From positions 3,968,001 through 4,032,000 of the forward strand of contig NZ_CP011533.1 of NCBI RefSeq assembly GCF_001704275.1: DNA of 64,000 bases, written 5' to 3'. Both the position numbers and the translations under genes were made by a program. The notes beneath the pieces are model-generated. The model did no database searches, had not been told where the DNA came from, and was given only the letters and a program-made list of their open reading frames with translations. This DNA comes from Streptomyces noursei ATCC 11455. Its GTDB lineage: Bacteria; Actinomycetota; Actinomycetes; Streptomycetales; Streptomycetaceae. Below are positions 4,098-18,844 of the stretch, in pieces; position 1 is the first letter of the stretch; the number at the start of each line of letters is the position of its first letter.

Positions 4098-5288
4098 TCA
4101 CCGTTGCTCCGCCATGTCCGGTATGGGCAGCGGCCGTTTCTCCAGTGCGGCCGCCATCACCTCCGGAAACCGGTCGGGCGTGCAGGCGAACGCCGGTGCC
4201 CCGAGGGCGGCCAGGGCCGCCGCGTGCTCCCGGTCGTAGGCGGGCGCTCCTTCGTCGGAGAGCGCGAGCAGGGTCACGAACCGCACCCCGGACGCCGTCA
4301 TCGCGGCGACCCGCTTGAGCATCTCGTCGCGGATGCCGCCCTCGTAGAGGTCGCTGATGAGGACGACCACGGTGTCGGCGGGGCGGCGGATCCGGGACTG
4401 GCAGTAGGCCAGCGCCCGGTTGATGTCCGTGCCGCCGCCGAGCTGGGTGCCGAACAGCAGCTCCACCGGGTCGTCCAGGTGGTCCGTCAGATCGGTCACG
4501 GCGGTGTCGAAGACGACCAGCCGGGTGTCGAGGGCCCGCATCGAGGCCAGCACCGCCCCGAACACCGAGGCGTACACCACGGACGCGGCCATCGACCCGG
4601 ACTGGTCGATGCAGAGCACCACGTCCTTCTTCGCCGACTGTGCGGAGCGCCCGTATCCGATCAGCCGCTCGGGGACGACGGTGCGGTGTTCCGGGAGGTA
4701 GTGCTTGAGGTTGGCGCGGAGGGTGCGGTCCCAGTCGATGGCGCGGTGCCGCGGGCGGCGGATCCGGGCGGCGCGGTCCAGCGCCCCGGTGAGCGTGGCC
4801 CGGGTGCGGGTCGCCAGCCGCTGCTCCAGCTCTCCGACGACCTTGCGGACGACCGCCCGCGCGGTCTCCCTGGTGGTCTGCGGCATCACCTTGTTCAGGG
4901 AGAGCAGGGTTCCCACCAGGTGGACATCCGCCTCGACGGCCTCCAGCATCTCCGGCTCCAGCAGCAGCGCGGACAGCCCGAGCCGGTCGATGGCGTCACG
5001 CTGCATCACCCGCACCACGGAGGACGGGAAGTAGCTGCGGATGTCGCCCAGCCAGCGGGCCACTTGGGGGGCCGACGCGCCGAGGCCGGCCGCCCGGGCG
5101 CCGCCGCCGTCGCGCGGTCCGCGGCCCAGCCGCGGGTGTGGTCGCTGCCCGTAGAGGGACTCCAGTGCGCCGTCCATCGCGGCGTCCCTGCCGCGCAGTT
5201 CGCAGCCGGTGCCGTCCGCGCCGGCGCCGCCCAGCGCCAGTCGCCAGCGGCGCAGCCGCTCCGCGTCCCGGTCCGTCGTGCTGGTCAT
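4098..5288 (-). CDS. vWA domain protein of the MoxR-DUF5682-vWA operon
   Basis: This 396-residue protein starts at ATG 5288, after GGGAG. The C-terminal half is a von Willebrand A domain with an intact metal-ion-dependent adhesion site: CIDQSGSM (DxSxS), a TDIN segment and LISDLYEGG. The N-terminal half is helical, with many Arg residues. The start codon overlaps the stop of the DUF5682 gene (ATGA), so it is translationally coupled as the last gene of a three-gene operon. vWA proteins paired with MoxR ATPases usually act as co-chaperone or substrate adaptor. No signal peptide is present, so it is cytoplasmic. Confidence 0.9.
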   Translation of the reverse strand: MTSTTDRDAERLRRWRLALGGAGADGTGCELRGRDAAMDGALESLYGQRPHPRLGRGPRDGGGARAAGLGASAPQVARWLGDIRSYFPSSVVRVMQRDAIDRLGLSALLLEPEMLEAVEADVHLVGTLLSLNKVMPQTTRETARAVVRKVVGELEQRLATRTRATLTGALDRAARIRRPRHRAIDWDRTLRANLKHYLPEHRTVVPERLIGYGRSAQSAKKDVVLCIDQSGSMAASVVYASVFGAVLASMRALDTRLVVFDTAVTDLTDHLDDPVELLFGTQLGGGTDINRALAYCQSRIRRPADTVVVLISDLYEGGIRDEMLKRVAAMTASGVRFVTLLALSDEGAPAYDREHAAALAALGAPAFACTPDRFPEVMAAALEKRPLPIPDMAEQR

Positions 5289-7981
5289 CTTCCCACTCCC
5301 GTCGGCTTGTTGATCACTGGGGCGGTGCCTTCGGTCCCCGTGGTCCCGGCTCCGTTCCCCACGCCGTCCGCGCCCCCGCTCGTACCGTCCCGCCCGCTCC
5401 CGACCCGCTCCTTCCCGTTCTCGTCGTGCCCGTCCCCGTCCCCGTCCCCGTCCCCGTCCCCGTCCTCGTAGCCGCGCTGGGGTATGCCCAGCAGGAGTCG
5501 CAGGGTGGGCAGGACGGCGGCGGCGCGGTCGCGGTCCAGGCCGGGGCCGAAGCCGGGCGCCGCCGCGTCCACGGGGCCGGCCGCCGGGTGGCGGGATCCG
5601 CCGGACGGGCCGCGGCGGACGAGTTCGCCGAGGGTGCGCCGCACCCCGGTGTCGTATCCGCCGAAGGTCCGCCGCAGCAGCGGCAGGACGTCGACGAACG
5701 CGGCGTCCGGTACCCGCGTCAGCCAGCCGTCCACCAGTGCCAGCAGCCGTTCGTCGTGGACCAGCAGCAGGCCGCCGTCCGGGCCGCCCACGAAGCCCTC
5801 GACCCATCCGGCGGCGTCGGCGGGCGGGGTGCCGGGCGAGAGGGCGAGCCCCATCAGCCGCTCCGCGCCGTCGCCGGGCAACCGTCCGTCGTCCAGCAGC
5901 AGCCGGGCGGCCCGCCCGCGGAGCAGGCCGGGGGCGGTGTCCCGTTCGGCGAGCGTCCGGAGGACCGCCGCCCAGCGCTCCCGCAGGGGCGGGGCGGACG
6001 GCTCGGCGGTCGCCCGGTCCGGTGCCCCGGTCTCCTTCGCGACCTGCCCGAGGAGTCCGACGGCCCGGTGGGTGGCGTCGAGGTGGCCGCGCAGCTCCGC
6101 CGCGCCGTCGGCGTCCAGGCCCGCGCAGGCCGGGGGCAGCCCGACGAAGATCCGGCCGGCCAGGCCCAGCGCCACCGCGCGGAGCGCGCCGGCGTCGGTG
6201 CCGCGGACGTCCCCGTAGCGCACCGCGCGGACCAGGGCGGGCAGGGCCTGGGCGAGGTGGCCGACGTCCGCGTCGAGGGCGGCGCGGTCGGCCAGCGCCC
6301 GCATCACCACCGGCAGGGCGTCGGGCAGCCCGGCGAGCAGGCAGCGCTCGGCGAGGGCGGTGACCTCGGCGAGGACGGTGGCCTCCGCGGCGTCCGAGGC
6401 GGCCTTGGCGGTGGCCGCGGTGAGCACCGTGGTGCCCCAGACGCCGGCCTCCGCGACCCGCACGGACAACTCCGGCTCCCAGCGCAGCCGCCAGGTCTCC
6501 CGGAAGGTGCCGGTGCTGCCCCGGGAGCGGGCGGGCTCGCCCCAGGGGACGCCGAGCAGCCGCAGCCGGTGCAGCAGGCCGCTGCGGCCGGCGTCGGTCT
6601 CCTTGCGGAGGTCCAGTTCCAGCTCCCGCTCGGCCGCCTCGGGCTTGAGGCGCAGCGTCCGCTGGCAGCGGGCGAGGTCCCGTTGGAGCGGGACGGCCGG
6701 GGCGTCCTCGGGCACCTGGCCCAGCACCTCGCCGACCACCAGCCGGTCGCGGATCAGCGCGGCGGGCACGTCGGAGCCGTCGGCCATGACGGCCCGGACC
6801 GCGTCGTCGAGTTCGGCGAGGCCGGCGAGCGGACGACCGCGGATCGCGGCGAGCCCTTCGGCGAGCCGCACCGCCTCGATGACGTGCGCCGACGAGACGG
6901 CGTGGTCCTCCTCGCGGAGCAGTCGGGCGGCCTTGGTCAGCCAGCGCTCCACGGGGCGGTCGGGGACCTCGAAGAGGTGGCCGTACCACCCGGGGGAGGT
7001 GATGCCGGCGCCGTAGCCGCTGCGCCGGGCCAGCCGCCGGTGAGTCCACGGCACCCAGGTCAGCGCCGTCTTCACCTTCGGCAGGCCCTTGAGGAGCTGT
7101 CGGTCGGCGGCCACCGTGGGCGGGGCGGGGCTCCCGCCGGAGCCGGGGCGGGCGGCGGCGGGGGCCAGTGCGGGGACGTGCCAGGCCCCGCAGACCACGG
7201 CCACCGGGTCGCCGAACTCCCGCCGCGCGGCGCGCAGTCGGAGCCGCATATGGGCCTCCCGGACCGCGTCGCGGTCGGATCCGTCGTTGCCGTGGGCCGC
7301 GCGCAGTGCCGCCATGGCCTCGGCGAGCGCGACGAACGGAGCCAGCGCGTCCGCCTCGGGTCCTCCCCCGCCGTCGGCGCCTCCCCCGCCCCCGGCTCCC
7401 CTCGCGCGGGGGGACCCCCATGGCCGGCCGGCACCCCCCGGGCCGCGGTGCTCGACCACGTCCTCCCACCAGCGCTCGGGGTCGTCGTGGCCGGCGGTCC
7501 CGGCGAGTACCCGGAGGGGGTCCAGCCGCATGGCGGCGGCCGACGCCGGCGCCCCCCGCTCCCCCGTTCCCTCGCCCGTTCCCGTGCCGGGCGCGGACCC
7601 TCCTCCTCGTTCCGGCCGTTCGTCGGTCTCCGGTTCCCCGTCCGCCATGGCCAGTGAATGTGCCGCCGGAAGGTCGATGAAGCGCACCGGAACGTCGTGC
7701 TCCAGGGCCCAGCGCAGCGCCACCCACTCGGGGGAGAAGGCGGCCAGCGGCCAGAACGCCGCGCGGCCGGGGTCGTCCACGGCGTGGGCGAGCAGGGCGA
7801 CCGGTGGCCGCATCTCCGGGTGGGCGGCGAGCGGCGCCAGCGCGTCCGCCTCCGGCGGCCCCTCGATCAGCACCGCGCGGGGTGCGCACTGCTCCAGTGC
7901 GGCCCGCACCGCCCGCGCCGAACCCGGGCCGTGGTGCCGCACCCCGAGCAGCACCGGCCCGGTCCCGCTTCCGCCGGTCAT
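5285..7981 (-). CDS. DUF5682 family protein
   Basis: This 898-residue cytoplasmic protein starts at ATG 7981, whose ATGA overlaps the stop of the MoxR gene; its own stop overlaps the vWA start in the same way. The N terminus, LLGVRHHGPGSARAV and then VLIEGPPEADAL, is the hallmark of DUF5682, a large family found with MoxR, vWA and SWIM genes; its biochemical role is unknown. A HxGPGS-type loop and an FIDLPAAHSL segment look conserved. Two stretches (near residues 130-210 and 860-898) are Gly/Asp/Pro-rich linkers; the first contains a Streptomyces-type palindromic repeat. Known from family: co-occurrence. Inferred: a partner or substrate of the ATPase. Confidence 0.85.
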   Translation of the reverse strand: MTGGSGTGPVLLGVRHHGPGSARAVRAALEQCAPRAVLIEGPPEADALAPLAAHPEMRPPVALLAHAVDDPGRAAFWPLAAFSPEWVALRWALEHDVPVRFIDLPAAHSLAMADGEPETDERPERGGGSAPGTGTGEGTGERGAPASAAAMRLDPLRVLAGTAGHDDPERWWEDVVEHRGPGGAGRPWGSPRARGAGGGGGADGGGGPEADALAPFVALAEAMAALRAAHGNDGSDRDAVREAHMRLRLRAARREFGDPVAVVCGAWHVPALAPAAARPGSGGSPAPPTVAADRQLLKGLPKVKTALTWVPWTHRRLARRSGYGAGITSPGWYGHLFEVPDRPVERWLTKAARLLREEDHAVSSAHVIEAVRLAEGLAAIRGRPLAGLAELDDAVRAVMADGSDVPAALIRDRLVVGEVLGQVPEDAPAVPLQRDLARCQRTLRLKPEAAERELELDLRKETDAGRSGLLHRLRLLGVPWGEPARSRGSTGTFRETWRLRWEPELSVRVAEAGVWGTTVLTAATAKAASDAAEATVLAEVTALAERCLLAGLPDALPVVMRALADRAALDADVGHLAQALPALVRAVRYGDVRGTDAGALRAVALGLAGRIFVGLPPACAGLDADGAAELRGHLDATHRAVGLLGQVAKETGAPDRATAEPSAPPLRERWAAVLRTLAERDTAPGLLRGRAARLLLDDGRLPGDGAERLMGLALSPGTPPADAAGWVEGFVGGPDGGLLLVHDERLLALVDGWLTRVPDAAFVDVLPLLRRTFGGYDTGVRRTLGELVRRGPSGGSRHPAAGPVDAAAPGFGPGLDRDRAAAVLPTLRLLLGIPQRGYEDGDGDGDGDGDGHDENGKERVGSGRDGTSGGADGVGNGAGTTGTEGTAPVINKPTGVGR
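7395..7423. repeat. Palindromic repeat inside the DUF5682 gene
   Basis: Here a CTCCCC arm and a GGGGGGACCCCC arm flank a GCGCG centre. The ending GGGGGGACCCCCAT is shared with the repeat at 49935-49968 inside the GMC oxidoreductase gene. This resembles a dispersed palindromic element common in Streptomyces intergenic DNA, here carried in frame within a low-complexity linker. Confidence 0.5.
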
Positions 7982-9105
7982 GCGCCCACCTCCCGGCAGG
8001 CGCGGTAGAAGTCCTTCCAGCCGTCCCGCTCGCGCACCACGGTCTCCAGGTACTCCTGCCAGACGACGCGGTCCGCGGCCGGATCGCGGACCACCGCGCC
8101 GAGGATGCCGGCGGCCACGTCCCCGGGGCGCAGCACGCCGTCCCCGAAGTGGGTGGCCAGTGCCAGGCCGCTGGTGACGACCGAGATGGCCTCGGCCGTG
8201 GAGAGCGTCCCGGACGGCGACTTGAGCTTGGTGCGGCCGTCGGTCGTGACGCCGTCCCGCAGCTCGCGGAAGACCGTCACCACGCGGCGGATCTCGTCCA
8301 TCCCCTGGGGCGCGGGCGGGAGTCGGAGCGAACTCCCGATCTGTGCGACGCGCCGCGCGACGATGTCCACCTCGTCCTCCGGGGTGGCGGGCAGCGGCAG
8401 GACGACGGTGTTGAAGCGGCGGCGCAGCGCGCTGGAGAGGTCGTTGACGCCGCGGTCGCGGTCGTTGGCCGTGGCGATCAGGTTGAAGCCGTGGACGGCC
8501 TGGACCTCCTGCCCCAACTCCGGTATCGGCAGGGTCTTCTCCGACAGGAGGGTGATGAGGGTGTCCTGGACGTCGGCCGGGATCCGGGTCAGCTCCTCGA
8601 CCCGCGCGGTCATCCCCTGTGCCATCGCCCGCATGACGGGGCCGGGCACCAGGGCGTCGGCGCTGGGGCCCTGGGCGAGCAACCGGGCGTAGTTCCAGCC
8701 GTAGCGGATCGCCTCCTCGGGGGTGCCGGCGGTGCCCTGCACCAGCAGGGTGGAGTCGCCGCTGACCGCCGCCGCCAGGTGCTCCGACACCCAGGTCTTG
8801 GCGGTGCCGGGCACGCCGAGCAGCAGCAGCGCGCGATCGGTGGCGAGGGTCGTCACCGCGACTTCGACGATCCGCCGCGGGCCGACGTACTTGGGCGTGA
8901 TGACCGTGCCGTCGGCGAGCGTGCCGCCGAGCAGATACGTCGCGACCGCCCAGGGCGAGAGCCGCCAGCGCTCCGGCCGGGGCCGGTCGTCGGCCGCGGC
9001 GAGCGCCGCCAGCTCGTGCGCGAAGGCGACTTCGGCGTGCGGTCGCAGTGCCTCCCCGGACCCGCCGTGCGCCCCACCCGCTGTGGTGATGCCGTTCTCG
9101 GACAT
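7978..9105 (-). CDS. MoxR-type AAA+ ATPase
   Basis: This 375-residue protein starts at ATG 9105, after GAGGGGGAAG. The Walker A is GVPGTAKT (residues 97-104), followed by TAGTPEEAIRYGWNYA, LIATANDRDRG (sensor-1 region) and SSALRRRFN (arginine finger). Where most MoxR proteins have a hydrophobic-D-E Walker B, this one reads ARVEELTRIP, so the first acidic position is Glu. It heads the operon MoxR-DUF5682-vWA with ATGA overlaps at both junctions. MoxR ATPases remodel or activate partner proteins with vWA co-factors. Transcription probably starts at the damage-type promoter at 9174-9196. Confidence 0.92.
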   Translation of the reverse strand: MSENGITTAGGAHGGSGEALRPHAEVAFAHELAALAAADDRPRPERWRLSPWAVATYLLGGTLADGTVITPKYVGPRRIVEVAVTTLATDRALLLLGVPGTAKTWVSEHLAAAVSGDSTLLVQGTAGTPEEAIRYGWNYARLLAQGPSADALVPGPVMRAMAQGMTARVEELTRIPADVQDTLITLLSEKTLPIPELGQEVQAVHGFNLIATANDRDRGVNDLSSALRRRFNTVVLPLPATPEDEVDIVARRVAQIGSSLRLPPAPQGMDEIRRVVTVFRELRDGVTTDGRTKLKSPSGTLSTAEAISVVTSGLALATHFGDGVLRPGDVAAGILGAVVRDPAADRVVWQEYLETVVRERDGWKDFYRACREVGA

Positions 9106-9173
9106 GCTTCCCCCTCGTCGCGCGATGTGCGGCCGGCGCCCCGCGCGGATCCCGCCGGCGACTTGCGGTTCCC

Positions 9174-9196
9174 AGCCTGCACCAGACCACTGACAA
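9174..9196 (-). promoter_or_regulatory. RecA-independent DNA-damage (PafBC-type) promoter for the MoxR operon
   Basis: Read on the minus strand: TTGTCAGTG (9196-9188), eight bases, then CAGGCT (9179-9174). The actinobacterial RecA-NDp consensus is TTGTCRGTG-N8-TANNNT. The -35 part is exact; the -10 has C instead of T at its first base. The leader to the MoxR start is about 60 bases. Confidence 0.65.
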
Positions 9197-9247
9197 CGCC
9201 CTCGAAAATCGTTGCTGACCTGCGGAGTTGCCGACGGGCGAGGGCGA

Positions 9248-9270
9248 TTGTCAGTGCCGCGTCGTAGCGT
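9248..9270 (+). promoter_or_regulatory. RecA-independent DNA-damage (PafBC-type) promoter for the SWIM gene
   Basis: TTGTCAGTG (9248-9256), eight bases (CCGCGTCG), TAGCGT (9265-9270): an exact match to TTGTCRGTG-N8-TANNNT. It forms one arm of an inverted repeat with the opposite promoter; the extended arms are 9188-9204 and 9239-9256, with one bulged A. This suggests joint control of both operons. Confidence 0.8.
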
Positions 9271-9333
9271 CGGAGACAGTGAATCCGCAGGGGTTCGACG
9301 GCAGGGGTTCGACGGGAGTCCGCAGGGGGTCGG

Positions 9334-10806
9334 ATGAGTCCGCACGGGGAGCGTTGGACGAGGGACCGGGTGTTCGCGCTGGCGCCGGACGAGGCGTCGC
9401 GGGCGGCGGGCGAGCGGCTCGCCGCGGCCGGCCGGTGGTCGGGGACGGGCGCGGGCGGGGGCGCGGTATGGGGGATGTGCGAGGGCGGCGACGGCGCGCG
9501 GTACGGCACGGTCGTGGATCTCGACGGGCCGGCGTTCCAGTGCAGTTGCCCGAGCAGGAAGTTCCCGTGCAAGCACGCGCTGGGGCTGTTGCTGCGGTGG
9601 GCCGGGGGCGAGGCCGGGGAGCCGGCGCGGCCGGGGGACGGTCCGGCCGCGGGCGGGGAGCCGCCGCCGTGGGCGGCCGGGTGGCTGGCGGCGCGCCGGG
9701 AGCGGTCCGACCGCCCGCCGGACGGCGCGGGGGCCGGCGGTCCAGGAGCCGGCGGTTCCGAGGCCGACGGCCCGGGCGCGGCCTCCCGCGCGCCCGCGGA
9801 TCCGGAGGCGGCCCGGCGGCGGGCGGCCCGCCGGATGCAGCGGATCGCCGCCGGCGCAACGGAGTTGGAGCAGCGCCTGGAGGATCTGCTGCACTCGGGC
9901 CTCGCGGCGGCCGGCCCAGCCGCCGGGGCCGCCGCCCGCACCGGCGCGGACGACCCCGGTGGCGGGCGGGGTTCCTGGGAGGAGACCGCCGCCCGCATGG
10001 TGGACGCCCAGGCGCCCGGACTCGCCTCGCGGGTGAGGGAGTTGGGCGCGATCGCGACCTCCGGCCCCGACTGGCCGTCCCGCCTGCTGGAGGAGTGCGC
10101 CCTGCTGCACCTCCTCGACCAGGGTTTCCTGGGCATCGACCGGCTCCCGCCCCCGCTCGCGGCGACGGTCCGCGCCCGGGTCGGACTGACCACGGACGCC
10201 GCGGACGTCCGGTCCGACCCGGAGACGGTGACGATCCGGGACCGCTGGCTGGTCCTCGCCCAACAGGACGGCGCCGAGGGCCCGTTGACCACCCGCCGGA
10301 TCTTCCTGCGCGGCGAGCGGACCGGCCGGATGGCGCTGCACCGCTCCTTCGGCGGCGCCCACCGCCCCCTGGAGGTGTCGCTCCCGCCCGGCCTGCTGCT
10401 CGACGCCGACCTGGCCTACTACCCGGGCGCCCGGCCGCTGCGCGTCGCCCTCGGTGAGCGGCACGCCCCCGCGACCCCGGGGCCGGTCCCGACCGGTTGC
10501 GGCATCGACGCCGCGCTGGCCGCGTACGGCCATGCGCTGCGCGACGACCCCTGGCTCGACGCCTGGCCGGTGGTCCTGGCCGATGTCACGCCGATACCGG
10601 GCGGCGCGGGCGGCGGCTGGCAACTGGCCGACGCCGACGGCGAGTCCGCCCTCCCGCTGGATCCGCGTTGCCTGGGCCGTCCGGCCCTGTGGCAGCTGGC
10701 GGCCGTATCGGGCGGCGCGCCGGTCACGGTCTTCGGCGAATGCGGCCACCGGGGTTTCCTGCCGCTGACGGTCTGGGACCCCGCACCGGTGTCGCTGTCC
10801 CCGTGA
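9334..10806 (+). CDS. SWIM zinc-finger protein
   Basis: This 490-residue protein starts at ATG 9334, after AGGGGG. The SWIM zinc site CxC-x6-CxH is present as CSCPSRKFPCKH (Cys70, Cys72, Cys79, His81), preceded by a short beta-rich segment; SWIM domains bind DNA or proteins. The rest is a long helical region of unknown fold. An Ala/Gly/Pro-rich linker (about residues 95-155) separates the two. It is divergent from the MoxR operon and is followed by the DUF5691 gene 68 bases later. SWIM, MoxR, DUF5682, vWA and DUF5691 genes commonly cluster, which points to one functional system. Confidence 0.88.
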   Translation: MSPHGERWTRDRVFALAPDEASRAAGERLAAAGRWSGTGAGGGAVWGMCEGGDGARYGTVVDLDGPAFQCSCPSRKFPCKHALGLLLRWAGGEAGEPARPGDGPAAGGEPPPWAAGWLAARRERSDRPPDGAGAGGPGAGGSEADGPGAASRAPADPEAARRRAARRMQRIAAGATELEQRLEDLLHSGLAAAGPAAGAAARTGADDPGGGRGSWEETAARMVDAQAPGLASRVRELGAIATSGPDWPSRLLEECALLHLLDQGFLGIDRLPPPLAATVRARVGLTTDAADVRSDPETVTIRDRWLVLAQQDGAEGPLTTRRIFLRGERTGRMALHRSFGGAHRPLEVSLPPGLLLDADLAYYPGARPLRVALGERHAPATPGPVPTGCGIDAALAAYGHALRDDPWLDAWPVVLADVTPIPGGAGGGWQLADADGESALPLDPRCLGRPALWQLAAVSGGAPVTVFGECGHRGFLPLTVWDPAPVSLSP

Positions 10807-10874
10807 CCCACCGCCCGGCCCGCAGCCGCGCGAGGCCCCCTCACCCGTGCACCACCCTCATCCGGAGGCAGGGC

Positions 10875-12548
10875 ATGCCGACCACACCCACCCCATCCCC
10901 CACCCCCAGCACGACCATCCCCACCGTGGCCGCCCCCGGCGCCTGGCCCGACCTGGTGAGCGCCGCGCTCCTCGGTGCCGAGCGGCGCACCCCGCCGGTG
11001 GCCGTGCGGGAGGGGCAGACCCCCGCGGCGGCGCTGCTGGACGCGGCGGCGCTCGGCACCGTGCGGCGGCGCTCCGCACTCCGCCCCGCCCCGGCCGCCG
11101 AGCGGCCCGCCCCGGCCCCCGCCGATCCGCGGCCCCCGCTGCCGCCGGCCGCCCGGCGCCGGCTCGCGCTGCTGCTCGCCGACCGCGCCCCCGGCTCCGG
11201 CAGCCGGCGCGGCACCGATCCCGACCTCACCGAGCTGCTGCCCCAGTGGCTGGCCGCCGCCGACGGACGCGGTTACCGCGCCCCCGAGGCACTGCTGCCC
11301 GCACTGCTGGACGCCGCCCGGTCCCGCACCGACCTACGGCCCGCCGCGCTCGCCCTGGCGGGCCCCCGCGGCCTGTGGCTGGCCCGGCTCAACGACGACT
11401 GGAGGTTCGCCCTCCGCGGCATCGGCGGGCCGCTGTCGCTGCCGGGCGCCGACGCCCCCGAGGCGGTCCGGCGGCTGTGGGAGGAGGGGCTGTTCGCGGA
11501 GCGGGTCGCGCTGCTGACGTCGCTGCGGCGCCGCGATCCGCGGGCCGGCCTGGCGCTGCTCGCGGCCACCTGGGCGACCGAGCGCGCCGAGGACCGTCTG
11601 ATGTTCCTGGATTCCCTCGGCGAGGCGCTCACGCCGAGCGACGAGCCGTTCCTGGAGCAGGCCCTCTCCGACCGCAGCCGCAATGTCCGCACCACCGCCG
11701 CGGAGCTCCTCTCCGCCCTGCCCGGCTCCGCGCTCGCGGCCCGGATGGCCGAGCGCAGCCTGGTCTGCGTCCGCCTGGCCCGCCCGGCCCCCGGGGACGC
11801 CACCGCCGCCGAGGTCCTCGTGGTCGATCCGCCGGGCGCCTGCGACGCCGGGATGCAGCGGGACGGCGTCGCCCCCCAGCCGCCCTCCGGAAGGGGGGAA
11901 CGCGCCTGGTGGCTGGGCCAGTTGGTGGAGGCGACGCCGCTGGACCGCTGGCTCGGCCGTCTGGGCCGGCGCTCCCCGGCGGAGCTCGTCGCACTCCCGG
12001 TGGCCGGCGACTGGCGCACGGAGCTGCACGACGCCTGGTGCCGGGCCGCGGTGCGCCAGCGGCACGCGGACTGGGCGCGGGCCCTGTTGGGCGCACCCGG
12101 CGACCCCGGCCAGGCCGCCGCCGAGCTGGCGCCGGCCGGTTCCTCCCGGGATCTGACGAAGCTGTTGGCGGTGCTCCCGGACGACGAACGGGCGTGCTGG
12201 GTGGCCGAGTTCATCGCCGTCCACGGCCTCGCGGACGCGTTCCGGATGCTGGGCGTCTGCGCGGTGCCGTGGTCCGAGCCGCTGGGCCGGGCGGTGGTCG
12301 ACGCACTGGACATCGCCCGGGACGCGGGCAGCTATCCGTGGAGCTTCAGCGGGGTGATGGGCCTGGCCGAGCGCTGCCTGGATCCGGCGGCGGCCGACCG
12401 CCTGCAGATGCTCACGGCGGTCACGGACGAGCCCGAGGGCGCCTCCCCGGGCTCCGGCGGCTATTGGTCCGAGGCGTTCCAGCGCCTGGTCGGCACCCTC
12501 CGCCTGCGCGCCGCCATGCACGCCGAACTCGCCGGGGAGGCGTCATGA
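10875..12548 (+). CDS. DUF5691 family protein
   Basis: This 557-residue cytoplasmic protein starts at ATG 10875, after GGAGGCAGG; the open frame runs further upstream but overlaps the SWIM gene. The N terminus has WPDLVSAALLGAERR and the core contains helical-repeat-like segments (RNVRTTAAELLSALPGS, WWLGQLVEATPLDRWL) typical of DUF5691. It probably folds as a HEAT-like solenoid, a common scaffold for protein-protein contacts. It is the second gene of the plus-strand arm of the damage-promoter system. No enzymatic motif is seen. Confidence 0.8.
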   Translation: MPTTPTPSPTPSTTIPTVAAPGAWPDLVSAALLGAERRTPPVAVREGQTPAAALLDAAALGTVRRRSALRPAPAAERPAPAPADPRPPLPPAARRRLALLLADRAPGSGSRRGTDPDLTELLPQWLAAADGRGYRAPEALLPALLDAARSRTDLRPAALALAGPRGLWLARLNDDWRFALRGIGGPLSLPGADAPEAVRRLWEEGLFAERVALLTSLRRRDPRAGLALLAATWATERAEDRLMFLDSLGEALTPSDEPFLEQALSDRSRNVRTTAAELLSALPGSALAARMAERSLVCVRLARPAPGDATAAEVLVVDPPGACDAGMQRDGVAPQPPSGRGERAWWLGQLVEATPLDRWLGRLGRRSPAELVALPVAGDWRTELHDAWCRAAVRQRHADWARALLGAPGDPGQAAAELAPAGSSRDLTKLLAVLPDDERACWVAEFIAVHGLADAFRMLGVCAVPWSEPLGRAVVDALDIARDAGSYPWSFSGVMGLAERCLDPAAADRLQMLTAVTDEPEGASPGSGGYWSEAFQRLVGTLRLRAAMHAELAGEAS

Positions 12549-14530: not shown

Positions 14531-16234
14531 GTGGACGACCGTCACCCGTCGGGGGCTCAGCTTCCGACCGCCCCCGCTTCCGATGCGTCCTACGCGCACG
14601 CGGCATACGGCGACGGTGACCCCCTCTTCGGCGCACACCCCGGCGGCCACGGCGGCTACGGCACCGGCGGCCACCCCGTGGGCGACCACCTCACCGACGC
14701 CTACGGAACCGGCAGTCACCCCACCACCGGGTACGACACCACCGCCTACGACACCGGCTACGACCCGTACGCGCACACCGGATACGACGCCCCCGGCTAC
14801 GGCACCACCGCCCCGTATGGCGCCGGGTACGACACCGCGGCCTACGGGCCCGCCGGAGGCTACGACTCCGCCGCCCACGGGAGCGGCGCCGCATACGGCA
14901 CCGGAAGCTACGACACCGGTGGCTTCCAGGCGCACGGCTTCGACGGCGGGGCGTACGACACCGGCGGCTACGACACCGGCGCCGCGTACGGCTCCGGGGG
15001 CGGCCTCACCGGCGGCTACGACACCGGCAGTTACCCCACCACCGGGTACGACACCACCGCCTACGACACCGGCTACGGCACCGCGGCCTACGACACCGCT
15101 TCCTTCGCGGCCGCCGCCACCGCCGTCCAGGAGCCGATCGGCTACGAGGCCACCGCGGTCTGGTCGACCGCGGACTACGCCGACCACGCCGACCGCACCG
15201 CCCCGTCGCCCGCCCCGGCCCCGGGCATCCCGGCCCAGGCGGGCCCGCCCGCGGACGACACCGTCCCGGTCGAGGACACCGTCCTGTGGGACCAGCCCCT
15301 CGCGGCGTTCGCCCCCGCGACCGCCTGCGCCGCCGACGAGCACGACGCCACCGACGCGTCCGCCACCCAGGCCCTTGCGCCCGACCCCTCGTCGATCGCC
15401 GACGCGATGACCCAGGCGATGCCCGTCACCGCCGTCCCGGACGACGACGCCCCCCTGCGGGTCGACGGTCCCCCGGCGGGCAAGGCGGTCCGCGGTCGCG
15501 GCCGGCGCCGCCAGGCCAAGCGCTCGGCGCTGCTGACCGTCGCGGTGCCCTCGGTAGCCGCGATGGGCGTCTGCGCGGCGGCCGCGGCCTCGGTCAGCCA
15601 GTTCGGCGGGGACGACAAGGACGGCACGACGACCCAGGCCGCACCGGACGCCGGTGCCGCGAAGCGGACGACTGCGGCCAACAAGAAGCTCGACAGCCAG
15701 CTCGCCGGACTCAGTGCCAGCGCCCAGGACTTCCGCGAGCGGGCCAGCCGCACCCAGGAGCGACTGGACCTCAAGCAACGGCAGGCGGACGAACGCAAGC
15801 GCAAGGAAGAAGAGGCGGCCCGCAAGGAGGCGCTGCGCCCCAAGTTCGTCCTGCCGGTCACCCAGCACGGTCTGAGCGCGCTCTTCGGCCAGGCCGGGGT
15901 GAACTGGATGTCGGTGCACACCGGCATCGACTTCCCGGTCAGCTACGGCACCCCGGTCATGTCGGCCACCGACGGCACCGTCCGCACCCAGTGGAACTCC
16001 GCCTACGGCAACATGGCGATCGTGACCTCGCCCGACGGCACCGAGACCTGGTACTGCCACCTGAGCAGCACCAAGATCCGCTCCGGCACGGTCAAGGCCG
16101 GCGACACCATCGCCTACTCCGGCAACTCCGGCAACTCCACCGGCCCGCACCTGCACTTCGAGGTCAGGCCGGGCGGCGGCTCGGCGATCGACCCGATACC
16201 GTGGCTCCGCTCCCACGACCTCAACCCGTACTGA
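14531..16234 (+). CDS. M23 family cell-wall endopeptidase with repeat-rich N terminus
   Basis: This protein has 567 residues from GTG 14531; TTG 14528 is an alternative, and the ribosome site AGAGAAG is weak. The first 200 residues are Tyr/Asp/Thr/Gly repeats (PTTGYDTTAYDTGY occurs twice, with many YDTG units). Then comes an acidic linker, a basic patch and membrane helix (about residues 330-355, SALLTVAVPSVAAMGVCAAA), a coiled coil rich in Lys, Arg and Glu, and a LytM/M23 domain with HTGIDF, WYCHL and PHLHFEV zinc/catalytic motifs. The topology is a cytoplasmic repeat region with the peptidase outside, cutting peptidoglycan cross-bridges. It converges on pcrA with a shared terminator. Confidence 0.88.
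   Translation: MDDRHPSGAQLPTAPASDASYAHAAYGDGDPLFGAHPGGHGGYGTGGHPVGDHLTDAYGTGSHPTTGYDTTAYDTGYDPYAHTGYDAPGYGTTAPYGAGYDTAAYGPAGGYDSAAHGSGAAYGTGSYDTGGFQAHGFDGGAYDTGGYDTGAAYGSGGGLTGGYDTGSYPTTGYDTTAYDTGYGTAAYDTASFAAAATAVQEPIGYEATAVWSTADYADHADRTAPSPAPAPGIPAQAGPPADDTVPVEDTVLWDQPLAAFAPATACAADEHDATDASATQALAPDPSSIADAMTQAMPVTAVPDDDAPLRVDGPPAGKAVRGRGRRRQAKRSALLTVAVPSVAAMGVCAAAAASVSQFGGDDKDGTTTQAAPDAGAAKRTTAANKKLDSQLAGLSASAQDFRERASRTQERLDLKQRQADERKRKEEEAARKEALRPKFVLPVTQHGLSALFGQAGVNWMSVHTGIDFPVSYGTPVMSATDGTVRTQWNSAYGNMAIVTSPDGTETWYCHLSSTKIRSGTVKAGDTIAYSGNSGNSTGPHLHFEVRPGGGSAIDPIPWLRSHDLNPY
14708..15075 (+). repeat. Near-identical repeats within the M23 gene
   Basis: The segments 14708-14761 and 15022-15075 differ at about one position and encode the same PTTGYDTTAYDTGY unit. 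Shorter GGCTACGACACC-type units fill the space between. Recombination between units would change length in multiples of three. Confidence 0.7.
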
Positions 16235-16307: not shown

Positions 16308-18812
16308 TTAGAGCTTCTCCACCGGTGCGTACCGCAGCAGCAGCCGCTTGGGCTTCTCGCCGCCGAAGTCGATGGTCGCCTCGGCGTTGTCCCCGCTGCC
16401 CTTGACGGCGACGACCGTGCCGAGCCCGAAGCTGTCGTGGGTGACGCGGTCGCCGATGGCCAGCGCGACCACCGGGCGGTCCGCCGCGCGCCGGGTCGCG
16501 AACCCGCTCGGCCCCTTGGCACGCGCCGACGACAGCGACGCCCCGATGCCGCCGCCGAGCCCTCCGCCGCCCGAGGAACCGCGCGACGACAGGCCGCCCA
16601 TGGACGCCGACGGCGTCGCGGGGCCCGTGCGCCGCCACTCCACGTACGCGTCGGGGATCTCCTCCAGGAAGCGGGAGGCCGGGTTGTACGAGGGCTGGCC
16701 CCAGGCGCTGCGCATCGTGGAGCGGGTGACGTAGAGCCGCTCGCGGGCGCGGGTGATGCCGACGTAGGCGAGCCGGCGCTCCTCCTCCAGCTCCTTGGTC
16801 TGGCCGAGCGCCCGCATGTGCGGGAAGACGCCGTCCTCCATGCCGGTCAGGAAGACCACCGGGAACTCCAGGCCCTTGGCGGTGTGCAGGGTCATCAGCG
16901 TGATGACGCCGGAGCCCTCCTCGTCCTCGTCCGGGATCTGGTCGGAGTCGGCGACCAGGGCGACCTGCTCCAGGAACTCGGCGAGCGTGCCGGGGCCCGC
17001 GGCGGCGCCCTCCGGCGGCGCGCCCTCGCCGCGCTCCTGCTCGAACTCCAGGGCCACGGAGGCGAGTTCCTGGAGGTTCTCGATCCGGGTCTCGTCCTGG
17101 GGGTCGGTGGACGCCTGGAGTTCGGCCAGATAGCCGGTGCGCTCCATGACCGCTTCCAGGACCGTGGCGGGGCCGGCCCCGGACTCCACGATCGTGCGCA
17201 GCTCCTCCATCAGGGCGTTGAACCGCTTGACGGCGTTGGCGGAGCGGGCGGCCATCCCATACGCCTCGTCGACCCGGCGCAGCGCCTGCGGGAAGGTGAT
17301 CTTCTCGCGCAGCGCCAGGGCCTCGATCATGGCCTCGGCGCGGTCGCCGATGCCGCGCTTGGGGACGTTGAGGATCCGGCGGAGCGGGACGGCGTCCTCG
17401 GGGTTGGCGAGCACCCTGAGGTAGGCGAGGATGTCGCGGACCTCCTTGCGCTCGTAGAAGCGCACGCCGCCGACGACCTTGTAGGGCAGCCCGACCCGGA
17501 TGAAGATCTCCTCGAAGACCCGGGACTGGGCGTTGGTGCGGTAGAAGACCGCGACGTCGCCGGCCTTGGCGTCGCCGGCGTCGGTGAGCCGGTCGATCTC
17601 GTCGGCGACGAACTGGGCCTCGTCGTGCTCGGTGTCGGCGACATAGCCGGTGATCTTGGGGCCGGCGCCGGCGTCCGTCCAGAGGTTCTTGGGGCGGCGG
17701 TTCTCGTTGCGCTCGATGACGGCGTTGGCGGCGGAGAGGATCGTCTGCGAGGAGCGGTAGTTCTGCTCCAGCAGGATCGTGGTGGCGTCCGGGTAGTCCT
17801 CCTCGAACTGGAGGATGTTGCGGATCGTGGCACCGCGGAAGGCGTAGATCGACTGGTCGGCGTCACCGACCACGCACAGCTCGGCGGCGGGGGTGTCGAC
17901 CGTGCCGGGGCCGACCAGCTCGCGGACGAGGGTGTACTGGGCGTGGTTGGTGTCCTGGTACTCGTCGACCAGGACGTGGCGGAAGCGGCGGCGGTAGTGC
18001 TCGGCGACGTCCGGGAACGCCTGGAGCAGGTGGACCGTCGTCATGATGATGTCGTCGAAGTCCAGGGCGTTGGCCTCGCGCAGCCGCGCCTGGTACATCG
18101 CGTACGCCTGGGCCAGGGTTTTCTCGAAACCGTCGGCCGCCGTCCCGGCGAAGGTCTCCTCGTCGATGAGCTCGTTCTTGAGGTTGGAGATCTTCGCGCT
18201 GAAGGACTTGGGCGGGAAGCGCTTGGGGTCCAGGTCGAGGTCGCGGCAGACCAGGGCCATCAGGCGCTTGGAGTCGGCCGCGTCGTAGATCGAGAAGGAC
18301 GACGTGAAGCCCAGCCTCTTGGACTCCCGGCGCAGGATCCGCACGCAGGCGCTGTGGAACGTGGAGACCCACATGGCGTTGGCGCGCGGGCCGACCAGCT
18401 CCTCGACGCGCTCCTTCATCTCGCCCGCGGCCTTGTTGGTGAAGGTGATCGCGAGGATCTGGCCGGGGTGGACGTGGCGCTCGGCGAGCAGGTGGGCGAT
18501 CCGGTGGGTGAGCACCCGGGTCTTGCCGGAGCCGGCGCCGGCGACGATCAGCAGCGGGCTGCCGCTGTGCGCCACGGCGGCCTTCTGCTGGTCGTTGAGC
18601 CCCTCCAGGAGCGCCGCCGGGTCGATGGCCGGGCGGGCGGCACCGTCGCGGTAGTAGGACTCCCTGGTCATGGGCGCGTCGAACTTCCCACCGAAGAGGT
18701 CGGCGGGCACGTCCTCGGGGGCCGGGCCGGGCTCGTCCTCGGGCGGGGGCGGGGGCTCCTCGTCCGGGGGGCCGAGGTCCGCCAGGAAGCTGTCGTCAAA
18801 GAGGCTGCTCAT
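16308..18812 (-). CDS. pcrA: ATP-dependent DNA helicase PcrA/UvrD
   Basis: This 834-residue superfamily 1A helicase starts at ATG 18812. Visible motifs: Q motif LNDQQKAAV, Walker A GAGSGKTR (motif I), TFTNKAAGEMKER (Ia), VDEYQDTN (II), DADQSIYAFRGA (III), LEQNYRSS (IV), TLHTAKGLEFPVVF (V) and YVGITRARE (VI). It unwinds DNA in repair, removes RecA and assists replication restart. The first 70 residues are an acidic, Pro-rich extension common in Actinobacteria; the end is the Tudor-like tail that contacts RNA polymerase in relatives. The damage-type promoter directly upstream fits a repair role. Confidence 0.97.
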   Translation of the reverse strand: MSSLFDDSFLADLGPPDEEPPPPPEDEPGPAPEDVPADLFGGKFDAPMTRESYYRDGAARPAIDPAALLEGLNDQQKAAVAHSGSPLLIVAGAGSGKTRVLTHRIAHLLAERHVHPGQILAITFTNKAAGEMKERVEELVGPRANAMWVSTFHSACVRILRRESKRLGFTSSFSIYDAADSKRLMALVCRDLDLDPKRFPPKSFSAKISNLKNELIDEETFAGTAADGFEKTLAQAYAMYQARLREANALDFDDIIMTTVHLLQAFPDVAEHYRRRFRHVLVDEYQDTNHAQYTLVRELVGPGTVDTPAAELCVVGDADQSIYAFRGATIRNILQFEEDYPDATTILLEQNYRSSQTILSAANAVIERNENRRPKNLWTDAGAGPKITGYVADTEHDEAQFVADEIDRLTDAGDAKAGDVAVFYRTNAQSRVFEEIFIRVGLPYKVVGGVRFYERKEVRDILAYLRVLANPEDAVPLRRILNVPKRGIGDRAEAMIEALALREKITFPQALRRVDEAYGMAARSANAVKRFNALMEELRTIVESGAGPATVLEAVMERTGYLAELQASTDPQDETRIENLQELASVALEFEQERGEGAPPEGAAAGPGTLAEFLEQVALVADSDQIPDEDEEGSGVITLMTLHTAKGLEFPVVFLTGMEDGVFPHMRALGQTKELEEERRLAYVGITRARERLYVTRSTMRSAWGQPSYNPASRFLEEIPDAYVEWRRTGPATPSASMGGLSSRGSSGGGGLGGGIGASLSSARAKGPSGFATRRAADRPVVALAIGDRVTHDSFGLGTVVAVKGSGDNAEATIDFGGEKPKRLLLRYAPVEKL

Positions 18813-18821
18813 CGCCCACCG

Positions 18822-18844
18822 AGTCTAGGCCGCCGCACTGACAA
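18822..18844 (-). promoter_or_regulatory. pcrA: RecA-independent DNA-damage (PafBC-type) promoter of pcrA
   Basis: On the minus strand: TTGTCAGTG (18844-18836), eight bases (CGGCGGCC), TAGACT (18827-18822), an exact match to the RecA-NDp consensus. The -10 ends only nine bases before the ATG, so the transcript would be leaderless or nearly so. Confidence 0.85.

Follow-up and report, generated by a model that had tools for sequence, protein, structure and literature searches.

Which signal controls a gene set that combines a MoxR-type AAA+ ATPase, a DUF5682 protein and a von Willebrand factor A (vWA) protein with a SWIM zinc-finger protein and a DUF5691 protein, and what could such a set do? 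The question is raised by a divergent five-gene locus in a stretch of 64,000 nucleotides from Streptomyces noursei ATCC 11455 (NZ_CP011533.1, positions 3,968,001 to 4,032,000), here called the window. MoxR, DUF5682 and vWA are encoded on the minus strand and SWIM and DUF5691 on the plus strand, and a spacer of 228 bases (9106-9333) lies between MoxR and SWIM. The two promoter-type sites in this spacer are, judging by their sequence, very probably PafBC-type DNA-damage promoters. The locus itself is proposed to encode a DNA-damage-induced MoxR/vWA machine that remodels DUF5682 at damaged DNA, a reading to which we give a probability of roughly 60%.

Two promoter-type sites in the spacer

The five genes in two arms, the ATGA overlaps of the minus arm and the length of the spacer had been described in a first-pass annotation of the window, and all of them were found at the coordinates given there. 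The ATGA overlaps join both minus-strand gene pairs, vWA/DUF5682 and DUF5682/MoxR. The same annotation had assigned both spacer sites to the consensus TTGTCRGTG-N8-TANNNT of RecA-NDp (RecA-independent) promoters. The SWIM-facing site fits this consensus, but the MoxR-facing site has CANNNT in place of TANNNT. The exact motif has two matches in the window, against a mean of 0.01 after shuffling.

The two sites had also been read as an inverted repeat. Two diverging sites are indeed present, but the available part of a paper on this motif calls it non-palindromic (PMC6789036), so the pair need not be one dyad operator. The motif noted before pcrA is present in the window as well, but an exact motif at most 120 bases upstream of a matched pcrA was found in just 9 of the 62 loci, out of the 80 related ones described below, where pcrA was matched. 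The pcrA site is thus mostly lineage-specific.

CANNNT of the MoxR-facing site is directly preceded by a conserved TGGTG, in the window as well as in related loci, and the SWIM-facing site has no such sequence. An extended -10 element was considered as the cause of TGGTG and rejected, because its TG is off by one base. The SWIM leader of the window (9271-9333) contains a repeated GGGGTTCGACGG sequence. The SWIM start codon is 63-64 bases from the -10 in the window and in the closest fetched relative, which is Streptomyces noursei (SWIM 96%) and has the repeated sequence in this interval too.

Conservation in Streptomyces and in Streptomycetaceae

Loci of the window's kind are called type A. 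The sample comprised the best 80 of 465 relatives, those most similar to the SWIM protein of the window. The SWIM-facing motif is exact in all 80 Streptomyces loci. Absence of the motif from orthologous spacers had been named in the first-pass annotation as evidence against its proposal, and this comparison does not refute it. The MoxR-facing TTGTCAGTG-N8-CANNNT is present in 76 of the 80 loci and absent in L004, L020, L021 and L031. All 76 sites use the -10 CANNNT, and their N8 mostly ends with TGGTG.

The information content of the alignment columns is concentrated in the motif. On the SWIM side it is 2.00 bits at all nine TTGTCAGTG positions and at T, A and T of the -10, 0.96 bits in N8, 0.43 in the 40 bases upstream and 1.05 in the 40 bases downstream, which include the SWIM start. 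On the MoxR side, N8 has 1.57 bits, the upstream bases 0.36 and the downstream bases 0.59. Outside the spacers, the 80 loci contain nine exact motifs in 2,355,476 strand-bases, and nine is also the count upstream of matched pcrA. The SWIM-facing -10 ends 6-7 bases before the SWIM start, as anchored by tblastn, in 69 of the 80 loci; the SWIM mRNA should therefore be leaderless there.

For the rest of the family, 20 of 146 genomes with a match were fetched, representing 14 other genera of Streptomycetaceae. Fourteen of these loci (11 genera) have a divergent SWIM gene, four have no SWIM match in the stretch, and two are single operons. A SWIM-facing site was found in all 14 divergent loci, exact in nine and within two mismatches in five. 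Two or fewer mismatches are reached by 3.6% of random 200-base windows of the family loci, a figure that includes the loci's own sites, and some of the real stretches are longer than 200 bases. Compared with the TA pattern, the best MoxR-facing site in these 14 loci shows one or two mismatches in 13 and four in the other. It shows 3, 1, 2 and 2 mismatches in the four loci without a matched SWIM. In the two single-operon loci (L250 and L262), a motif with one mismatch stands at the new head, which is SWIM.

Type A MoxR (E ≤ 1e-100) was detected in 146 of 150 Streptomycetaceae genomes and in 15 of 17 genera. DUF5682 of any type is present in 117 of 121 Streptomyces genomes, many of which carry further copies, and in 24 of 396 genomes across the phylum.

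The motif as a regulon signal

In the whole genome of the window, TTGTCRGTG-N8-TANNNT has 34 matches and the reversed pattern has none. Thirty of the 34 sites were taken as loci, open frames were called behind them, and 23 site genes were analyzed with Pfam. By this motif, the regulon includes the genes listed in Table 1, such as those for RecA, UvrB-type and UvrC-type proteins. Non-repair site genes encode PhoH, a release factor, a Mur-ligase type protein (read as FolC-like), a radical SAM protein, an ABC transporter, a transport permease, NB-ARC, DUF2797, chorismate mutase and, below the cut-off, a macro domain. At several sites, such as L081, L083, L085, L098 and L102, no convincing gene was called. 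From this distribution of sequence matches, the motif is a regulon signal in this genome.

A second class of sites, TTGTCRGTG-N8-CANNNT, was observed in the same genome (25 matches versus 0 for the reversed pattern). The base before the last T is A in 15 of these 25 sites and in 2 of the 34 TA sites (p 7e-6). The genes behind this class include a topoisomerase IV/gyrase A protein, an Lhr-type helicase, a DNA polymerase III delta-type protein and an MGMT-like protein. In L162, also from this genome, two exact sites at 4369 (minus) and 5047 (plus) face away from one another, with about 680 bases between them.

Two genes of the Pup-ligase family are present, and about 3 kb behind the second one the PafC helix-turn-helix (HTH) family was matched over the cut-off, with 110.8 bits. 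Two open frames next to the Pup-ligase genes gave no Pfam match, and PafB was not identified there.

The motif was counted in 217 genomes of the phylum. All eight Streptomyces genomes contain 10-40 sites, with 0-1 for the reversed control. Eleven other genomes of the class contain 0-11 sites, with 5-11 in five genomes of one family (f3). The 198 genomes of other classes contain 0-2 sites, with one genome at 3, which is near their control counts of mostly 0 and sometimes 1. A review, as far as its text was available, states that further Actinobacteria have the RecA-NDp promoter too (PMC8223512). In the available part of a paper on LexA of S. venezuelae, an initial search suggested that the PafBC motif of M. 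smegmatis is not conserved, and the existence of such a response in Streptomyces is said to remain to be shown (PMC9380542).

Table 1. Promoter-type sites and genes of the locus in the window, and genes behind exact motif sites in the same genome.
Feature	Position or locus	Strand	Remarks
MoxR-facing RecA-NDp-like site	9174-9196	-	TTGTCAGTG-N8-CAGGCT
SWIM-facing RecA-NDp/PafBC-type site	9248-9270	+	TTGTCAGTG-N8-TAGCGT
pcrA-facing site	18822-18844	-	TTGTCAGTG-N8-TAGACT
vWA gene	4098-5288	-	VWA_CoxE (Pfam, 209.5 bits); last in minus operon
DUF5682 gene	5285-7981	-	898 aa; DUF5682 (Pfam, 958 bits)
MoxR-type AAA+ ATPase gene	7978-9105	-	AAA_5 (Pfam); heads minus operon
SWIM zinc-finger gene	9334-10806	+	SWIM (Pfam, over cut-off)
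DUF5691 gene	10875-12548	+	DUF5691 (Pfam, 571.5 bits); ATG start after GGAGG
pcrA	16308-18812	-	PcrA; site gene, Pfam; in the window
RecA	L086		site gene, Pfam
UvrB-type	L105		site gene, Pfam
UvrC-type	L106		site gene, Pfam
Mfd-like protein with UvrB-interaction domain	L095		site gene, Pfam
Second UvrD-type helicase	L088		site gene, Pfam
DnaX-type protein	L092		site gene, Pfam
RecD2-type protein	L108		site gene, Pfam
Exonuclease/endonuclease family	L084		site gene, Pfam; read as xth
O6-methylguanine methyltransferase (ogt)	L104		site gene, Pfam
AlkZ-like glycosylase	L096		site gene, Pfam
PD-(D/E)XK nuclease	L109		site gene, Pfam

Sister systems in Streptomyces

Two further types of the system are present in Streptomyces. 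Type B consists of a DUF4132 protein, which has 284 aa in L157, a 1683-aa protein without a Pfam match, MoxR, DUF5682 and vWA. Type C starts with DUF4132, which L159 carries as a fusion with WGR, and continues with MoxR, DUF5682, vWA and SWIM. What is new is that these two deeply separate relatives, the DUF4132 type and the WGR/DUF4132 type, of which the latter resembles yehF/yehI-yehLMPQ of E. coli, also carry the motif at the likely head of their operons.

Among the copies listed, 20 type B loci were fetched, and 19 were counted, as L200 is cut before its head. The motif at the likely head is exact in 17 of them, and has two mismatches in L211 and one in L214. L156 (one mismatch) and L157 (exact) stand outside this count. 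Likewise, 19 of 20 type C loci were counted, as L235 is cut, and the motif is exact at 16 likely heads. The others have one mismatch (L223), an exact but reversed motif (L222) and two mismatches (L236, by eye). L158 and L159, both exact, are outside the count, L159 being the place of L219. When both strands of all the type B loci fetched were scanned (20 loci, 428,038 strand-bases), the 17 exact motifs found and a single one-mismatch motif were all located at heads. In type C, 16 of the 17 exact motifs found by the scan stand at heads and point the right way, as does one of three motifs with one mismatch.

The three types are separated in the MoxR tree (50 rows). Type A rows, including those from other Actinobacteria, are on one side. 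Type B clusters with one further actinobacterial row, L146 (100/100), and type C with YehL of E. coli (100/99), each as a group of its own; long branches are flagged in this tree, and the exact order of the groups is not claimed. Type C MoxR proteins are 63-64% identical to YehL. These sequences are most simply read as separate entries of types A, B and C into one regulon; a less likely view is that the heads all descend from a single ancestral operon in Streptomyces.

Among ten Streptomyces loci fetched for standalone genes of the DUF4132 type, five (L240, L241, L244, L245 and L246) have an exact motif. In four of the five, about 400 bases lie between the motif and the first start codon of the long frame behind it. 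A comparison between DUF5691 and DUF4132 gave no support for their being one family.

Relatives outside the family

At the SWIM head of two family f3 loci, the site is degenerate, with two mismatches in L144 and one in L145. A type C locus of Nonomuraea has a site with two mismatches before its head (by eye). No motif was seen at five inspected heads from other classes, and a pattern scan of the remaining loci outside the family found no site by the genes except in L160. There, an exact motif at 14833 (minus) is near the likely head of a further MoxR/vWA cluster from another actinobacterial family.

Relatives in other phyla include plasmid-borne copies. The gene order SWIM, DUF5691, AAA and DUF5682 is found in Deinococcus taeanensis, Rhizobium sp. 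K102 and Methylosinus plasmids. D. taeanensis has one small gene between AAA and DUF5682, and a VWA gene is annotated after the set in D. taeanensis and Rhizobium sp. K102. Two Rhizobiaceae plasmids show the order AAA-DUF5682-DUF4132-VWA-SWIM. For seven plasmid-borne relatives, the 300 bases next to the head contain no strict SOS-type (LexA) box; the nearest LexA-like element among them is GTTC-N7-GTTC, about 700 bases upstream in L285. A search for the radiation/desiccation response motif in D. taeanensis found none. The D. taeanensis head (L282, 7720-7765) contains TTGACA...TACAAT with the inverted repeat AACAGTACATGTGTT in the gap, which looks operator-like by eye.

For the E. coli region, a strict SOS-box scan gave no match; the site there has CTGG. 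A 20-mer that we take to be the molR LexA site occupies positions 448-467 of L163, exactly 7 bases ahead of yehF, whose start is at 475. MolR is described as LexA-regulated, and one DUF4132 protein and one WGR protein of Deinococcus are strongly upregulated upon depletion of DdrO, in the available part of one paper (PMC8533742). Control by DNA damage recurs across lineages, and universality is not claimed.

Proteins of the locus

In MoxR, the Walker A (GxPGTAK), Walker B EE, ATAN and RRF residues are unchanged in all 13 aligned rows. In the vWA protein, the residues of the metal ion-dependent adhesion site (MIDAS), D228-x-S230-x-S232, T287 and D313, are unchanged in 12 of 12 rows. C70, C72, C79 and H81 of SWIM are unchanged in 24 of 24 rows and follow the CxCx(n)CxH pattern. 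The modeled C-terminal half of the SWIM protein has a weak likeness to the OB fold. An alternative start of DUF5691 is GTG at 10803, which overlaps the SWIM stop codon.

NCBIfam gave no name above the cut-off for any of the five proteins. The sequence search against the Protein Data Bank found no match for the DUF5682 and vWA profiles and only chance-level matches for SWIM, while the matches for MoxR include NorQ. The model of DUF5682, the proposed client or effector of MoxR and vWA, suggests an alpha/beta part at the N-terminus and a helical repeat at the C-terminus, and the repeat took up the Foldseek and VIA lists for this model. Kinship of the N-terminal part with TraB/TIKI was considered and not adopted: GVRHHG, VLIEGP, REAHM and VVCGAWH are alike by eye only, and Pfam TraB matched 1 of 4 fragments below the cut-off (E 0.0094). 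The hhalign comparison with YbaP gave about 1%, with unrelated controls lower still; the comparison set was shallow and enterobacterial, since a search of 118 Actinomycetes genomes for PF01963 found nothing. The DUF5682 frame in L018, L020, L146, L156 and L157 also covers the vWA region, and DUF5682-vWA fusions may exist.

Comparison with known systems

The closest known arrangement is the yeh set of E. coli K-12, which comprises yehF (PF05406, WGR), yehI (DUF4132), yehL (MoxR), yehM, yehP (VWA) and yehQ (SWIM). Both the window and the yeh set keep MoxR, DUF5682, vWA and SWIM genes together, and the DUF5682 model matches E. coli. The window differs in having DUF5691, in lacking WGR and DUF4132, and in its divergent two-promoter layout. 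Its adjacent MoxR, DUF5682 and vWA genes with a nearby SWIM gene correspond to a YehL-type system, but its MoxR is 39% identical to YehL and belongs to a separate clade, while YehL groups with type C.

The mycobacterial PafBC/RecA-NDp regulon shares its promoter consensus with the window, and the kinds of genes overlap, such as recA. The full consensus stands at the head and in the right direction in the SWIM arm, whereas the MoxR arm has CANNNT. MoxR1 and MoxR2, which are lower in a pafBC deletion of M. smegmatis, presumably belong to another MoxR subfamily than the window's. None of the five genes is named in the available parts of the mycobacterial literature.

NorQ/NorD, RavA/ViaA and CoxD/CoxE likewise have a MoxR ATPase and a vWA partner with a full MIDAS. 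The window differs from them in client families, in neighbors and in its control by a DNA-damage-type motif. The MoxR-vWA ternary conflict systems of Kaur et al. 2020 share MoxR, vWA and a further component, as far as described in the available text (PMC7159879). The Pfam scan of the five proteins found no VMAP, iSTAND, FtsH or beta-propeller third component, and bpMoxR was below the cut-off.

YehL is named as a MoxR subfamily (PMC3893208, in part), and SWIM, WGR, YehL and MolR are absent from the main text of Kaur et al. as available (PMC7159879). The literature search, which covered a limited collection of papers, found none with DUF5682 or DUF5691. Papers naming at least two of yehL, yehM, yehP and yehQ concerned genome sequences. 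For PafBC combined with MoxR, SWIM or VWA, none of the papers listed was on these genes, and for MoxR, SWIM and VWA together, SWIM stood only in a figure legend in the available part of the paper examined.

Proposed mechanism and alternatives

The first-pass annotation had suggested a DNA-damage-induced ATPase system. Its promoter and regulon part is supported by the orthologous spacers, the genome-wide gene list and types B and C. The promoter evidence is strong, while the mechanism is what we infer from the known mode of action of MoxR/vWA pairs, as given in the available parts of three papers (PMC13036017, PMC7159879, PMC3893208), and from the DNA-linked partners. Upon DNA damage, PafBC and the housekeeping RNA polymerase would fire both divergent promoters. 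SWIM would be translated from an mRNA that is predicted to be leaderless in most species, and MoxR-DUF5682-vWA would be read the opposite way. MoxR would form an ATPase ring, and vWA would use its MIDAS to dock the client, in the way that has been proposed for NorQ/NorD. The client on which MoxR/vWA act is probably DUF5682. The complex would be guided to single-stranded or damaged DNA by SWIM, with its zinc finger and OB-like domains, together with a DUF5691 scaffold. For types B and C, this place would be taken by a DUF4132 protein, which in C carries a WGR domain. That the SWIM or WGR arm is the DNA-targeting part is plausible at slightly under even odds.

The same promoters could also control a set without any direct role at DNA. 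Such a set would be induced by DNA damage and yet act after stress in the general quality control of proteins or in the maturation of metallo-enzymes, like CoxD/CoxE or NorQ/NorD. MoxR/vWA pairs of known function do mature enzymes, according to the available parts of two papers (PMC3893208, PMC13036017), the locus has a CoxE-type vWA protein, and the motif regulon also includes the release-factor and Mur-ligase-type genes. However, SWIM, with its weak OB-like model, and the WGR-DUF4132 partners of type C point towards DNA, and DNA-damage-type promoters are common to three lineages, which makes pure quality control or maturation rather unlikely. Alternatively, the locus could be a defense system that reads DNA damage as a sign of phage attack, like the MoxR-vWA ternary systems. 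The patchy distribution over the phylum, the extra copies in many Streptomyces and the plasmid-borne copies, one of which adjoins a type I restriction system, would fit defense. The near-universal presence of type A MoxR in Streptomycetaceae and the proximity to pcrA would not. PADLOC gave no convincing match, returning only IetA for MoxR (E 0.017 and 0.043) and nothing for the other four proteins, and Pfam shows no VMAP, STAND, FtsH or death-like domain. The involvement in biological conflict mentioned in the first-pass annotation is improbable on this evidence.

The regulator itself could be another one, such as ClgR, which is reported to recognize a mycobacterial P1 promoter (PMC5656591, in part). 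PafB was not identified, and the role of PafBC here is predicted. Yet the PafC HTH is encoded near a Pup-ligase gene, the motif fits the published RecA-NDp consensus tied to PafBC, and repair genes are abundant behind it, so that control by a regulator other than PafBC appears very improbable.

Significance

Compared with these alternatives, the preferred reading is a DNA-damage-induced MoxR/vWA machine acting on DUF5682. That three separate lineages carry a DNA-damage-type promoter suggests that the DNA-damage response includes a machine not yet studied. Tentatively, a MoxR/vWA/DUF5682 core with a DNA-recognizing arm, either SWIM-OB plus DUF5691 or WGR-DUF4132, could be a widespread bacterial DNA-damage-response machine that has been missed, placed in each lineage under its own regulator: PafBC in Streptomyces, LexA in E. 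coli and DdrO in Deinococcus. The strong motif signal in all eight Streptomyces genomes, with repair genes behind it, bears on the open question of a PafBC-type response in Streptomyces. If true, the proposal would give an area of function to an unstudied, near-universal gene set of Streptomyces that has homologues in E. coli K-12.

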